Assembly: GCA_025362955.1 (NCBI GenBank) | Contig: JANYFB010000216.1 | Span: 1 to 32,886 of the forward strand | Direction: 5' to 3' | DNA: 32,886 nt | From: Akkermansiaceae bacterium | GTDB lineage: Bacteria > Verrucomicrobiota > Verrucomicrobiia > Verrucomicrobiales > Akkermansiaceae | Shown: positions 27,701 to 32,886 of the stretch, piece by piece | Layout of the letters: each line of letters opens with the position of its first letter | Position numbering within the stretch: the first letter of the stretch is position 1 | Notes under the pieces: generated by a model | Told to the model about the DNA's origin: nothing | Database searches by the model: none | What the model saw: the letters and a program-made list of their open reading frames with translations, nothing else | Program-made: the position numbers and the translations under genes

Positions 27701-27767
27701 AAGGAGTCGCGACATTCCTGTCGCGAGGCAATCCAGTCTTGTGGCGACAGGAATGTCGCCACTCCTT
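27701..27767. repeat. Pair of REP-like palindromes in opposite orientation (BIME-like)
   Basis: AAGGAG-TCGCGACA-TTCC-TGTCGCGA (27701-27726) and the inverted GTGGCGACA-GGAA-TGTCGCCAC-TCCTT (27741-27767). Confidence 0.9.
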
Positions 27768-28365
27768 ATTTCACGGCTTGCGCCCGGGGGCCTTCCCACA
27801 GGGTGAAAGTCCCCGCCCGCAGCTTCGCCGGATTCCGGCGGATGTATCTCACCGCGTTCGCGAAATGCCCGCCATCCCGGATCATCGTGTCCCGATAGTT
27901 TTTCTGCCAGATCTTCCCTTGCCCGATCCGCCGGGAGCTTACGCCTTTCCAGACTTGCATCAGTTTCTCAAGCGGTGCCAGCGGCGTGAAAACCAGGTGC
28001 AGGTGGTTCGGCATGATCACCCACGCGTGATGCTCCACCTTCTCTCCCTGGAAACGCATCAACACCGCTTCCATCAGCGCCCGGTTGGCGGGTTCCTTGA
28101 GCAAACAGGACCCAGCTCCCTCATCCAGCCACCCTTCCAACCTCCGGGTGAAGCGCTTGTGATACTCCTTCTCCACTTCCGCCGACCGTGGCTGCGGATG
28201 GACTTTTTGCCAGATTTCACGCTCTTCCTTCCATTGGCGCAGCTTTCCCGCAGGCATCGAGTCGCCGAGCCGGAACGTGACGAACTGCATCGCATCCCCC
28301 TGTTGCCAATGAGGCAGCTCCTGCCCGTGCTTCAGGATCTCGCCGGATGGATTCAGATAGTCCAT
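27766..28365 (-). mobile_element. REP-associated tyrosine transposase (RAYT, Y1/HUH)
   Basis: HHAWVIMPNHLHLVFTPLAPLEKLMQVWKGVSSRRIG (HUH), Tyr/Arg region GGHFANAVRYIRRNPAKL; flanked by REP palindromes at both ends. ORF track starts upstream inside the REP; ATG at 28365 preferred. Confidence 0.92.
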
Positions 28366-28374
28366 GAGCAGCAA

Positions 28375-28405
28375 AATAAGGAGTAGCGACATTCCTGTCG
28401 CTACC
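28375..28405. repeat. REP-like palindrome at the 5' end of the RAYT gene
   Basis: AATAAGGAG-TAGCGACA-TTCC-TGTCGCTA-CC; 9-bp stem GTAGCGACA/TGTCGCTAC with the same TTCC loop as 27715-27718. Confidence 0.92.
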
Positions 28406-28420
28406 AAAATCCCCGGTCCA

Positions 28421-28462: not shown

Positions 28463-29014
28463 TTATCGCAGCAGTTCTTGGATTCGATTCGCGATCTCCT
28501 GCGGCAAGTAGGCTCTCGCCGCCGTCACCCGCAGCAGCGGCAGTCCGGCGGCAGAGAACGCGCGGTTCTTGAAGTCGTCGCTCTCCTGGCTGTCCTTTCG
28601 CTTGTGACTCGCATCGTCCAGTTCAATTGCCAGCAACGGCTGCATCGAGCCGCCGTCGCATACCACGAAATCGACGTGCTTGCCGTCCGTCCGGTTGCGT
28701 GCCGCTTGGTTCACGTTCGGTTGTTTCACGTAAAACAGGTCGGACAGCCGGACCTTGGTGATCAGGTAATGCCCCGGCTGCATCACCCCCTTGAGCACGT
28801 GAAAAAACGAAATCTCCGCCGGACTCAGGAACTCATCCCTCAGGCCATAGGGATAGGTAATCTCCTTCTGCGCGGAAACGGGAAGCGCCGGAGGCAAGGC
28901 ACCCGGGCTGGCGGAACTATTGGAAACACCTCCAGTCGCGGACCTCGTTGGCCCGAAACCCAGCATGTTGAGAAGTATCCCTAGGCACCCGCTGTTATTA
29001 GATGAATCGCTCAT
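28463..29014 (-). CDS. DUF2726-like protein (putative nuclease-fold domain)
   Basis: FLSPAEISFFHVLKGVMQPGHYLITKVRLSDLFYVK...GKHVDFVVCDGGSMQPLLAIELDDASHKRKDSQESDDFKNRAFSAAGLPLLRVTA. Confidence 0.82.
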   Translation of the reverse strand: MSDSSNNSGCLGILLNMLGFGPTRSATGGVSNSSASPGALPPALPVSAQKEITYPYGLRDEFLSPAEISFFHVLKGVMQPGHYLITKVRLSDLFYVKQPNVNQAARNRTDGKHVDFVVCDGGSMQPLLAIELDDASHKRKDSQESDDFKNRAFSAAGLPLLRVTAARAYLPQEIANRIQELLR

Positions 29015-29134
29015 GTTTCTGTGATGGAAATGTGATAGATCTCTGCCGGTGGCAATCCGTATCGCCAATGAACCGCCCTGTAGCGTCGCTCTATGAGCGT
29101 CGATGCCCAGGAGATGTCAATCAGGACTCCGCAA

Positions 29135-29860
29135 CTAACGAACCCACTCCCAGAACACGCCCCCATCCTCTCCCGAGTATAGATTCGCCGCAGTTGTCGT
29201 GTGGTGGCAAAGGTAGGCCCACGGCACGGGTTCCTGTTTGTCGATGATTAGAACTTCGAGCGATGCGTGGACCTGTTCGCGCCATGTGTGATCACCCACA
29301 AGCCATTCGAGTAGAAACCGGAATGGGGTGGGATCAGAAGGAACTTCGGGCGCGAGTCTCGCGAGCAATCTCGGCTTGCCAGACCGTTTCACCATCGCGC
29401 GGAGATGCTCGCGGTCCTCGGCCACCGGAGCGACGATGATTTCAGGAGGCTTCCTCAACACGATTCCAGACGGCGTGATGGTGGTTCGATCAAGCAAGTA
29501 TTTCGGAATGGTTGGAGGCGGAAGTTTCTCCGTCTCGATCCCCAGCAGCTTGTTCCCCCACAATTGGATTCCCTGAACCGTGTTGATAATTGCGGTGTGA
29601 CGCCCGAGTTCCACCCCGTCGCGAAAGAGAATGAGCGTGGGAAACGCCCGGATCTGCCGCCGGATCCAATCGTCATCCGTTCCCGGCGTCTCCACACTGC
29701 TGTAGGAACGGAACGTCCACCCGGCGGCGGCCGCCGCTTCCATGGCGGCACGAAACAAGTAACCATAAATGATCCCATCCGCTCCGTCGCGCAGTGGCCA
29801 TGATAGATCGAAGTGTTCGAGGAAGACTCCGGGCGTCGTTTCCGGGCGTGGGTGGGTCAT
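29135..29860 (-). CDS. hypothetical protein with thioredoxin-fold-like N-terminal half, no CxxC
   Basis: 241 aa; AFPTLILFRDGVELGRHTAI resembles the thioredoxin cis-Pro/beta segment; no CxxC pair upstream. Confidence 0.6.
   Translation of the reverse strand: MTHPRPETTPGVFLEHFDLSWPLRDGADGIIYGYLFRAAMEAAAAAGWTFRSYSSVETPGTDDDWIRRQIRAFPTLILFRDGVELGRHTAIINTVQGIQLWGNKLLGIETEKLPPPTIPKYLLDRTTITPSGIVLRKPPEIIVAPVAEDREHLRAMVKRSGKPRLLARLAPEVPSDPTPFRFLLEWLVGDHTWREQVHASLEVLIIDKQEPVPWAYLCHHTTTAANLYSGEDGGVFWEWVR
29172..29199. repeat. 28-bp direct repeat, copy 2 (inside 3' end of the thioredoxin-fold CDS)
   Basis: CCCGAGTATAGATTCGCCGCAGTTGTCG; 26/28 identical to 28421-28448. Confidence 0.9.
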
Positions 29861-29909: not shown

Positions 29910-30995
29910 CTACCGCTTGTCCCGCAGCACCATGTTGTAAACTTTCTCCAAGTCGGTTGAAGACAGTTCCTTGAGGGATGCGAACGGTTTCATCTTCAGG
30001 CGTCTGGCAACTTCAGGATAATATGCTTCCTTTGTGACCCCCATGGTTCTCATGCCTGCCATGATGGCTCCAATTAGAGAAGATGAATGGATCGCTGGAG
30101 ATTTTCTCTTTGCCTTGCGCACCAGCTTGGCTTTCTCGACCAAATACCAGTCCTTAACAAGCGGCATTTGTTCGACATGCAACGCATCATAGCGGGGAAC
30201 TTCAAATCGATTTTTTAACCGGGATCTCCAGCCTTTGATGCAGGTTGCGTATGGCTTTTTTTCTATCTCCTCGGAAAGCTTGGCCAATTCATCAGTCCAA
30301 TCCAAAACCCGCTTTTGATCTGCCGGCAAAATATGGTCGGGATGCCGCTGTATCGTGATTTCCGGCTTCTTCGGCAGGTTGATATTGAAAACATTTTTGT
30401 CGCCTGCGGACTGAATATTGCCATCTCCTTTCGCCTTCTGATTGATGCTCTTTTTACCGACCGTCTTCTTCGGCGCAGCGATTTTCGCCAGGATGTCGCG
30501 CACAGCAAGGTCGAGATGGATTTCTAAAAGCTTTCTGAATTCGTGCCGGCTTTTGAATGCGAAGCTCAATCCCGTATCTTTCATTTTGTCGCGGAATGCT
30601 TCGAGCTTTTTCATTTGTTCGAAGTCAGTCACAATGTGGGGAGCCTCAAGATTTGAGAAATAAGACATCACCCGGATACCTCGGGCCATTCCTCGTGTTA
30701 TCTCTTCCACGGTGCCTGACTCTGCCAAACCTGTTGGCGTTCCAAGGCGGGTCCAAAGGATGGCGACAAGAATTTGAGATTCATCGATCATCTGTCGGTT
30801 AATTGCAGCCTGGCCGCGTTCATCCATAGTGGGAGCGCAGTCAGTGCTCCAATGCCGCGCTTTTATATGCCATCCAGTGGAATCCTCATGCCGTTGGTTC
30901 CACGCGTCGATCACCTCGCGAGCAATAACGATTTCTCTCTCCACGTCACCTGGGCAACAGATGGTTACGTTCAGTATTTTCAATGTTTTGGTCAT
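29910..30995 (-). CDS. DUF4062-like N-terminal domain fused to an ORF6C-like C-terminal region
   Basis: N-term LKILNVTICCPGDVEREIVIAREVIDAWNQRH...INRQMIDESQILVAILWTRLGTPTGLAESGTVEEI; linker GDGNIQSAGDKNVFNINL; C-term CIKGWRSRLKNRFEVPRYDALHVEQMPLVKDWYLVEKAKL. ATG at 30995 chosen over the upstream alternative. Confidence 0.72.
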   Translation of the reverse strand: MTKTLKILNVTICCPGDVEREIVIAREVIDAWNQRHEDSTGWHIKARHWSTDCAPTMDERGQAAINRQMIDESQILVAILWTRLGTPTGLAESGTVEEITRGMARGIRVMSYFSNLEAPHIVTDFEQMKKLEAFRDKMKDTGLSFAFKSRHEFRKLLEIHLDLAVRDILAKIAAPKKTVGKKSINQKAKGDGNIQSAGDKNVFNINLPKKPEITIQRHPDHILPADQKRVLDWTDELAKLSEEIEKKPYATCIKGWRSRLKNRFEVPRYDALHVEQMPLVKDWYLVEKAKLVRKAKRKSPAIHSSSLIGAIMAGMRTMGVTKEAYYPEVARRLKMKPFASLKELSSTDLEKVYNMVLRDKR

Positions 30996-31218: not shown

Positions 31219-32886
31219 TCAGTTCGGCTTCGGAATAGGCATCCGCGGCGGGGCGGTGGCCCACATAAGCTCAATCTCTTCCGGCGTTAGCCCGTAGGCT
31301 TCGTTGACGAGGTCGCTAAGTTCACGCTCCAGCTTCAGGGCCTCGGCGGCGAGGGCGCGGGCGGGTTCGATGGTGCGGGTGTATTCCTCGCGGAGGGCTT
31401 GCAGACCGGCGGCGGTAAGCGGGAGTTTTTTGCCCCGGATGTGCTTCACTTCGGCAATGAAGCTGTCGAGGTCGAGGGCGGTCAGGTTCTGGAGTTTGTT
31501 GGTCGGCTTTTCGATGGAGTATTCAACGCGCAGCCAGTCTAGAATCGTGTGTTTCGTTTTTTGCTGGCCGACTTGTATTTCGATCAGGCGGCGGGCGGCA
31601 TTTTCAGCTTGTCTCCTAGTTGCGGCTGTGGGTTCTGCTATGGGCAGTTCGGTCATTTTGAATGCTACAGGAGACAGCGCCTCATCTTTCATGTGCGGAA
31701 GGTAGCGCCAGTTGTGCCACCACAGTAGCGGTGAGTTCAGAACGGCTAGCAGATAAAGATCATCCGTGCTCAGTAAGAAAGTTTTGTTATTGCCATGGTT
31801 CCCCGCAGTATCCAGCGAGTAGGAGGGATGAAACTGGATCTCCTGGTAAATAATCTTGGGTTTCTCGAAGTCATCCCAAAAGGCGCATGAACTCAACTCC
31901 CACCAATGCCTTACCTGATTCTTTCGAGCGCGAAGCTGCGCCTCGTAAGGCTTCATGTGCGCGTGGATGCTGGGATAAGTTTTTTGGAACAACGCCTCAG
32001 CCGCCACACCATCCAATCCCTCACCGGACCAAGGCCATGTGAAATTGTTGCTCGACTTCATTACGATCATGAATTGACCGCTTTGCTCGGTATGCCAGCG
32101 CCCAAGGTCCTGCCCCCGGAAGTACGGACGGATAATCTCTGCACAGTTTGGGTCTGCTTTCACGACTTCCCCATGTTTTTGCGCGTCCAGAAGGAAAGCA
32201 TCATTGAAACCGGTCATTGTTCCCCGTTTCGGTGCTATTCCGAGAAACTCTCCCAGAGTTTTCCGATTTGAGCTGATCTTTTGATAAAGCTGGCTGACTT
32301 TGGGGGACTCGAGTTGCCAGTCTTGGACGCCAAGCTGCTGCAATTCGATTTCCGCGCCTTCAGTCTCGATTTGCACACTAAGATCGTTAACGCGAAGCTG
32401 TTCACGCGGGATCGTGCACAGCCGGGCAGTTTTGGGTTTCTCGTTACTCGTTGGCTTTTCGGCGACGATGATGCAGGGAAACACATCCGCATCTTCGAAG
32501 ATCTGTTTGGCATGGCCGAAATCGACAACCGACTTGATCCACGATTTCTCACTGAAGAAGCGGCGCAGCGGCTCGCCATAACCTGCCTTCATCCATTTGT
32601 TAGTGACGATGTAGGACATCAATCCACCGGGTTTCAGCAGGCGCACGCCGAGTTCGTAGAAATAGACGTAGAGGTCGGCCATGCCGTGGAAGCTCTGATA
32701 GTTCGCCTGCATCCATGGCTTGTAGGGAGTTAGAAGTTCCTGCCTAACATACGGCGGATTTCCCACCACGACATCGAAGCCGCCTTCCACGAAGACTTCG
32801 GGAAACGCGGCTTGCCAGTCGAAGGCTTTCGGATGGACAGCGGGATCGCTGACGACGCTGTTTCCCTCGCGGATGGTGTGATCCAG
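31219..32886 (-). CDS. type IIG-like restriction-modification/Eco57I-type N6-adenine methyltransferase, N-terminus beyond window
   Basis: FDVVVGNPPYVRQELL (NPPY motif IV), LLKPGGLMSYIVTNKWMKAGYGEPLRRFF, TaqI-like C-terminal specificity region (PYFRGQDLGRW...IIYQEI...LLAVLNSPLLWWHNW). Frame stays open to the window edge (LDHTIREGNSVVSDPAVHPKAFDWQAAFPEVFVEGG). Confidence 0.9.
   Translation of the reverse strand: MDHTIREGNSVVSDPAVHPKAFDWQAAFPEVFVEGGFDVVVGNPPYVRQELLTPYKPWMQANYQSFHGMADLYVYFYELGVRLLKPGGLMSYIVTNKWMKAGYGEPLRRFFSEKSWIKSVVDFGHAKQIFEDADVFPCIIVAEKPTSNEKPKTARLCTIPREQLRVNDLSVQIETEGAEIELQQLGVQDWQLESPKVSQLYQKISSNRKTLGEFLGIAPKRGTMTGFNDAFLLDAQKHGEVVKADPNCAEIIRPYFRGQDLGRWHTEQSGQFMIVMKSSNNFTWPWSGEGLDGVAAEALFQKTYPSIHAHMKPYEAQLRARKNQVRHWWELSSCAFWDDFEKPKIIYQEIQFHPSYSLDTAGNHGNNKTFLLSTDDLYLLAVLNSPLLWWHNWRYLPHMKDEALSPVAFKMTELPIAEPTAATRRQAENAARRLIEIQVGQQKTKHTILDWLRVEYSIEKPTNKLQNLTALDLDSFIAEVKHIRGKKLPLTAAGLQALREEYTRTIEPARALAAEALKLERELSDLVNEAYGLTPEEIELMWATAPPRMPIPKPN

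Follow-up and report, generated by a model that had tools for sequence, protein, structure and literature searches.

What does a bacterial protein do that joins a DUF4062-type N-terminus to a C-terminus related to phage regulators, and which of its two ends senses and which one acts? The question arises from a gene that follows a restriction-modification (RM) gene in an Akkermansiaceae bacterium. The original prediction, made by eye, had proposed a DUF4062 sensor domain joined to an ORF6C-like region of the phage-antirepressor kind, together with a phage-sensing or decoy role in defence. The window that we analysed comprises 32,886 bp and is one whole contig of a 3.9-Mb draft assembly in 352 contigs.

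The gene and its neighbours

The genes considered here form a co-directional block:

31219..32886, minus strand: type IIG restriction enzyme-methyltransferase, C-terminal 555 aa; its N-terminus lies past the contig end
29910..30995, minus strand: DUF4062-ORF6C-like protein, 361 aa, an open frame with ATG at 30995 and stop at 29912-29910
29135..29860, minus strand: hypothetical protein, co-directional, starting 49 bp downstream of the DUF4062 gene
28463..29068, minus strand: DUF2726 protein, nuclease-like, the last gene of the block, 66 bp past the hypothetical-protein gene

The predicted gene is real: the minus strand, which had not been specified before, reads from 30995 to 29910 as one open frame with an ATG start, while the plus strand there is full of stops. 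The RM neighbour is likewise of type IIG, as had been supposed, with matches to Pfam Eco57I (125 bits) and TaqI_C (26.5 bits) and to PADLOC REase_MTase_IIG (3e-69). Its methyltransferase and TaqI_C-type domains are seen in the window, the nuclease part would fall past the contig end, and 223 bp separate the end of this gene from the DUF4062 gene, which follows on the same strand. On the downstream side, the nuclease-like gene is confirmed as DUF2726 (Pfam, 104 bits), with a weak match to REase_MTES_1575. The gene in between, earlier described as thioredoxin-like, bears that likeness by eye only and returned no family match in profile searches. A simple promoter scan of the co-directional block found no promoter-like site, which is weakly suggestive of one transcript. 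Just past the block, positions 27766-28407 encode an IS200-like (Y1) transposase domain protein.

Full-length homologues were found by genome scan in Spartobacteria, at around 42% identity, and in two other families of the same phylum; the Spartobacterial relatives point to Verrucomicrobiota. Genome G215 carries a second copy (L015:8100-9197, on G215:C4) that is interrupted by an in-frame stop, and a further copy of the Spartobacterial type (L085:8670-9461) is degenerate; such broken copies are signs of decay or of selection against the gene. A whole-protein search of phage records gave no match, and searches of solved-structure sequences with the whole protein and two module alignments gave chance matches only. 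Each domain was modelled separately, because a mixed full-length alignment misplaced phage modules onto the wrong domain. The parts of the protein are as follows:

30471..30995, minus strand: DUF4062 (TIR-like) domain, aa 1-175, the predicted effector (PADLOC PDC-S60 at 5e-29, alignments, AlphaFold)
30702..30704, minus strand: codon of E98 in SGTVEE, the putative catalytic glutamate (invariant in DUF4062 alignments; a conserved Glu is needed in published relatives, PMC13174449)
30381..30428, minus strand: linker GDGNIQSAGDKNVFNI, aa 190-205 (recurs in DUF4062, HNH and phage-type relatives; low-confidence AlphaFold segment)
30105..30326, minus strand: ORF6C-like helical part of the C-terminal module, around aa 224-297 (relatives over the PF10552 cut-off, hhalign, helices at pLDDT around 90)
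29916..30098, minus strand: C-terminal three-helix part, around aa 300-360 (AlphaFold; weak Foldseek likeness to the Red-beta C-terminal domain)

The DUF4062 domain as a predicted effector

The match to PDC-S60 covers aa 6-172. Pfam DUF4062 (PF13271) gives the protein 13.2 bits, below the cut-off of 24.7 bits, and an annotated E. coli DUF4062 protein likewise falls under that cut-off with 21.3 bits. Plasmid relatives at 32-38% identity carry the annotation "DUF4062 domain-containing protein", and an 11-sequence alignment that includes annotated DUF4062 proteins has 14 invariant columns. The Glu of the GTxxE motif (E98) is unchanged in 11 of 11 and in 16 of 16 aligned DUF4062 domains. Judged from these comparisons, the DUF4062 assignment of the original prediction is correct, the curated Pfam profile is insensitive, and the protein belongs to the DUF4062 NADase family. 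The AlphaFold model of the domain is confident (pLDDT 89.9, pTM 0.85) and alternates strands and helices. Its 12 significant Foldseek matches in the PDB include plant TIR domains and also other alpha/beta proteins, at TM of around 0.4-0.5, so that the fold alone is no proof of TIR. PADLOC matches to JetA and PglZ (E 0.002-0.01) were treated as chance.

According to a preprint of May 2026 (PMC13174449), the antiphage system Swarozyc uses DUF4062 as its effector, a TIR-like NADase. In KpSwz, a C-terminal winged-helix domain mediates activation by the phage portal, after which the protein consumes NAD+ and the infection is aborted; both a conserved Glu and the auxiliary domain are needed. Because that work shows an NADase function for the family, the N-terminal domain studied here is, by analogy, most likely an effector rather than a sensor. 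The original prediction had therefore assigned the roles the wrong way round, and a DUF4062 sensor was rejected in view of the published enzyme data.

A scan of viral contigs with the E. coli DUF4062 domain found no relatives. As separate observations, a DUF4062 gene that is cut by an IS3 element lies right after the terminase genes in a Salmonella prophage-like region (L026:3252-6727), and 14 further DUF4062 loci were recorded in viral contigs (L059-L072).

A C-terminal module shared with phage repressors

Searched alone against Pfam, the C-terminus of the window protein has no match, ORF6C (PF10552) included. Nevertheless, homologous modules exceed the Pfam ORF6C cut-off of 22 bits (28.4 bits for L049 and 25.9 bits for a phage repressor), the six sequences of the first module alignment each match PHROG_17822, and the sole significant Foldseek match of the module among viral structures is an "ORF6C domain-containing protein" (E 5.9e-8). 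Whole-protein searches also returned homologues that share only aa 182-358. For instance, one module-bearing protein (L019) has an HNH-like nuclease N-terminus (HNH_2 at 14.7 bits, below cut-off, with the canonical motif recognised by eye), and its module matches the C-terminal part of a CI-like repressor, that of the Mu-like Pseudomonas phage Gregale (OR683403; tblastn E 7e-14), in which the repressor gene adjoins a Ner-like gene and a transposase. The window module matches HNH-fused modules by BLASTP at 3e-15, and hhalign joins DUF4062-type modules to phage repressor modules over 161 columns (probability 96.5%, E 9.7e-10). On these alignments, the module and the C-terminal part of Mu-like phage repressors are homologues. 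Thus, the proposed ORF6C type stands, but the nearest annotated phage kin are CI-like repressors of Mu-like phages and not antirepressors.

The phage CI-like repressors begin with an XRE helix-turn-helix (HTH), whereas no HTH match was found in the DUF4062-ORF6C-like protein, and the idea that the gene encodes a transcriptional regulator was rejected on this ground. AlphaFold models the module as all-helical, with a low-confidence and probably flexible GDGN linker; the middle motif that had been noticed by eye, GDGNIQSAGDKNV, does occur, and it is found again in homologues and in related proteins. A 55-residue stretch of the module is weakly like the Red-beta C-terminal domain (Foldseek E about 1, prob 0.97), a domain whose binding partners are lambda exonuclease and SSB (PMC8303780). 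Its length would place this stretch on the C-terminal three helices, and we take the modelled likeness as a lead only. A viral-contig scan with the HNH-fused module found no relatives, and a literature search for what the phage ORF6C domain does found no reports.

One module, several N-terminal domains

A search with the module found it in 10 of 340 genomes of the phylum, and a broader profile over 390 genomes returned the same 10. The family is small, at around 3% of the sampled genomes of the phylum, and the six lineages discussed below are a small sample; the sampling was much thinner outside the phylum. The N-terminus on the module is DUF4062 in the window, Spartobacteria, G406 and G355, a canonical TIR in G239 (TIR_2, 55 bits) and G572 (89 bits), and an HNH domain in G372 (31 bits) and G030. 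Other module proteins begin with unknown helical regions, and in phages the module is fused to an N-terminal XRE HTH. Since relatives keep the module and change the N-terminus (DUF4062, TIR, HNH), the N-terminus would be an exchangeable effector and the module its regulator or sensor. We regard this role of the module as likely from the architecture, a constant C-terminus with interchangeable enzymes being the usual sensor-effector layout. The idea of a phage-sensing or decoy effector thus survives in its probable defence role, with the difference that the phage-type module, and not DUF4062, is the likelier sensor.

The HNH-ORF6C-module gene of G372 (L050:6408-11251, on G372:C101) belongs to a row of genes that includes a DarT-like one (1.5e-6) and, by eye, an ADP-ribosylglycohydrolase-like gene, a UvrD-like helicase and a DprA-like gene.

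Linkage to RM and methyltransferase genes

In each of the six lineages whose module bears a TIR-like or TIR effector, the gene lies at or near DNA methyltransferase or RM genes:

Window lineage: type IIG gene upstream
G572: TIR-module gene preceded by a SIR2-like gene and, before that, by a type IIG gene that a transposase gene interrupts
G355: type III mod and res genes, followed by the DUF4062 gene
G239: TIR-module gene between the type I HsdM and HsdS genes
Spartobacteria: methyltransferase and helicase gene of around 1,700 aa directly upstream, at all four loci with full upstream sequence
G406: C5 methyltransferase 4 kb away, with an HNH-like gene adjacent

When three Pfam families were counted, four of the six genes lay within 5 kb of a methyltransferase, a result with a chance of around 3e-6 given the measured density; two methyltransferases of the six escaped the Pfam models used. 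By way of control, the 9-19 kb around five class relatives that have DUF4062 without the module were examined by motif and by eye, and no methyltransferase motif was seen. A sixth supposed module-less relative (G099) is in fact a degenerate member of the Spartobacterial type behind a methyltransferase-helicase gene. The linkage could reflect general defence-island clustering.

Several of these neighbourhoods hold further genes. The TIR of the G239 gene inside hsdM-hsdS (L052:1502-3884, on G239:C48) matches Thoeris ThsB at 1.7e-39, and a literature search for TIR genes embedded in type I RM found no reports. In G572 (L084:973-7586, on G572:C3), the SIR2-like gene is in two overlapping frames, and RM, SIR2 and TIR stand in a row. 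An Avs3a homologue (1294 bits) follows a DUF4062-module gene in G215 (L017:8717-13699, on G215:C11). In G258 (L016:3604-8845, on G258:C2), PAPS-reductase-like and DGQHR (DndB-like) genes, recognised by eye, adjoin a DUF4062-module gene in what is possibly a DNA-modification defence cluster.

A proposed mechanism and its alternatives

Taken together, we consider it probable that the DUF4062-ORF6C-like protein is an abortive-infection NADase coupled to the adjacent RM gene, with a sensor unlike the winged helix of Swarozyc. Observed here were the homologies, the unchanged Glu, the exchange of effectors and the linkage to RM genes, while NADase activity and abortive infection were shown for DUF4062 relatives elsewhere (PMC13174449). 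The catalytic chemistry of the domain is accordingly proposed from those relatives, and the sensing role of the module from its architecture; we infer that the window copy is active and that the RM and DUF4062 genes act together. The DUF4062 domain would be a TIR-like NADase that is normally kept off. The ORF6C-type module would hold it off, oligomerise it or both, and would receive the infection signal. Upon RM failure or a trigger, the module would rearrange and the DUF4062 domains would become active, NAD+ would be consumed, and the cell would die or stop before phage release, the NADase serving as a second line behind RM. For the trigger, the main alternatives would be a protein of phage regulation or recombination, the condition of the RM enzyme, or, as in Swarozyc, a structural protein. 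The genomic context lends support through the SIR2-like gene beside one TIR member and the Avs3a gene after one DUF4062 member. A more elaborate version, which we put forward tentatively and think unlikely to hold as a whole, is a two-tier unit in which RM acts first, followed by a suicide effector that can be exchanged (a TIR-like NADase, a TIR or an HNH domain) and that sits on a repressor-type module sensing prophage induction or phage recombination upon RM failure. If true, this would be, to our knowledge, the first known use of a repressor regulatory module as an immune sensor.

Other readings differ mainly in what the module would respond to. It might be a decoy that mimics the repressor C-terminus, senses antirepressors, prophage induction or a phage recombination protein or SSB, and turns the NADase on. 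The collinear homology with Mu-like phage repressors fits such a decoy, as does the 55-residue weak structural likeness to the Red-beta C-terminal domain, a binder of lambda exonuclease and SSB (PMC8303780), although this last match stands at E about 1; we hold the decoy to be a possibility worth pursuing, if a doubtful one. Rather unlikely, in our view, is a PrrC-like guard of RM, in which the methyltransferase or RM complex would keep the protein inactive, a phage anti-restriction protein that disables RM would fire the effector, and the module would bind the RM enzyme and not a phage component. The tight co-directional linkage to unrelated RM types, the insertion between hsdM and hsdS and the place directly after type III res all suit a guard, but the module is also present in phage repressors and in HNH proteins next to which no RM gene was seen by eye, and the docking of one module onto such different RM enzymes is unlikely.

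The two remaining readings give the protein a more familiar identity. With the same N-terminal domain and the same overall layout, it might be a plain case of Swarozyc, with phage portals sensed by a C-terminal AUX domain that is a diverged winged helix; however, the window module has no similarity to the C-terminus of the E. coli DUF4062 protein, for which there is a weak winged-helix match, and its model is all-helical and matches ORF6C, so that we find this improbable. We give very little credence to a repressor-like regulator of the RM operon in which DUF4062 would be a ligand-binding domain and not an enzyme. The RM linkage and the phage-repressor homology of the C-terminus would be in keeping with such a regulator, but the protein is without the repressors' N-terminal HTH, DUF4062 has been shown elsewhere to be an NADase (PMC13174449), and a regulator would not account for the exchange of the effector for HNH or TIR.

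If the protein is indeed an RM-coupled NADase, DUF4062 NADases would gain a second, unrelated sensor type, which phages carry in their lysogeny repressors. The module family occurs at loci where RM or methyltransferase genes of at least five kinds are found, and TIR and DUF4062 exchange on the same module. What ORF6C-type modules recognise, and how cell suicide backs up RM, are thereby made testable.

Comparison with known systems

The closest system is Swarozyc, as represented by KpSwz (PMC13174449), with which the protein shares an N-terminal DUF4062 domain with a conserved Glu, a C-terminal auxiliary domain, a single-protein layout and defence neighbourhoods. In Swarozyc, however, the auxiliary domain is an HTH or winged helix, whereas here it is of the ORF6C/phage-repressor type and accompanied by RM or methyltransferase linkage, and portal sensing is not expected. 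In a comparison with the E. coli DUF4062 protein as representative, in place of KpSwz, the window module is unlike the C-terminus, and the Swarozyc-type auxiliary domain is thus absent. Because its auxiliary domain is of a different type, the protein falls outside the definition of Swarozyc. The description of the protein as undescribed therefore needs qualifying: DUF4062 defence was reported in May 2026, but with a winged-helix sensor, and the main text of that preprint makes no mention of ORF6C, repressor or restriction, which its supplement with domain architectures may do.

PADLOC PDC-S60, a phage defence candidate and the best profile for the N-terminus, is a model of 906 aa of which only the first 174 positions are covered. 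Thoeris comes into view through the G239 relative, which has a ThsB-like TIR on the same module in a single protein and no ThsA partner gene seen next to it. PrrC and RloC are tRNA-cleaving anticodon nucleases found in RM operons. As with the DUF4062 gene, a toxic effector gene there travels with RM, but these enzymes are unrelated to TIR-like NADases. Finally, Gregale-type CI-like repressors (PHROG_17822, PF10552) carry a module that is homologous and collinear and is preceded by an Asn/Gly-containing linker; in the phage, this module follows an N-terminal XRE HTH, whereas here it follows a TIR-like enzyme and the locus is an RM locus of the host.
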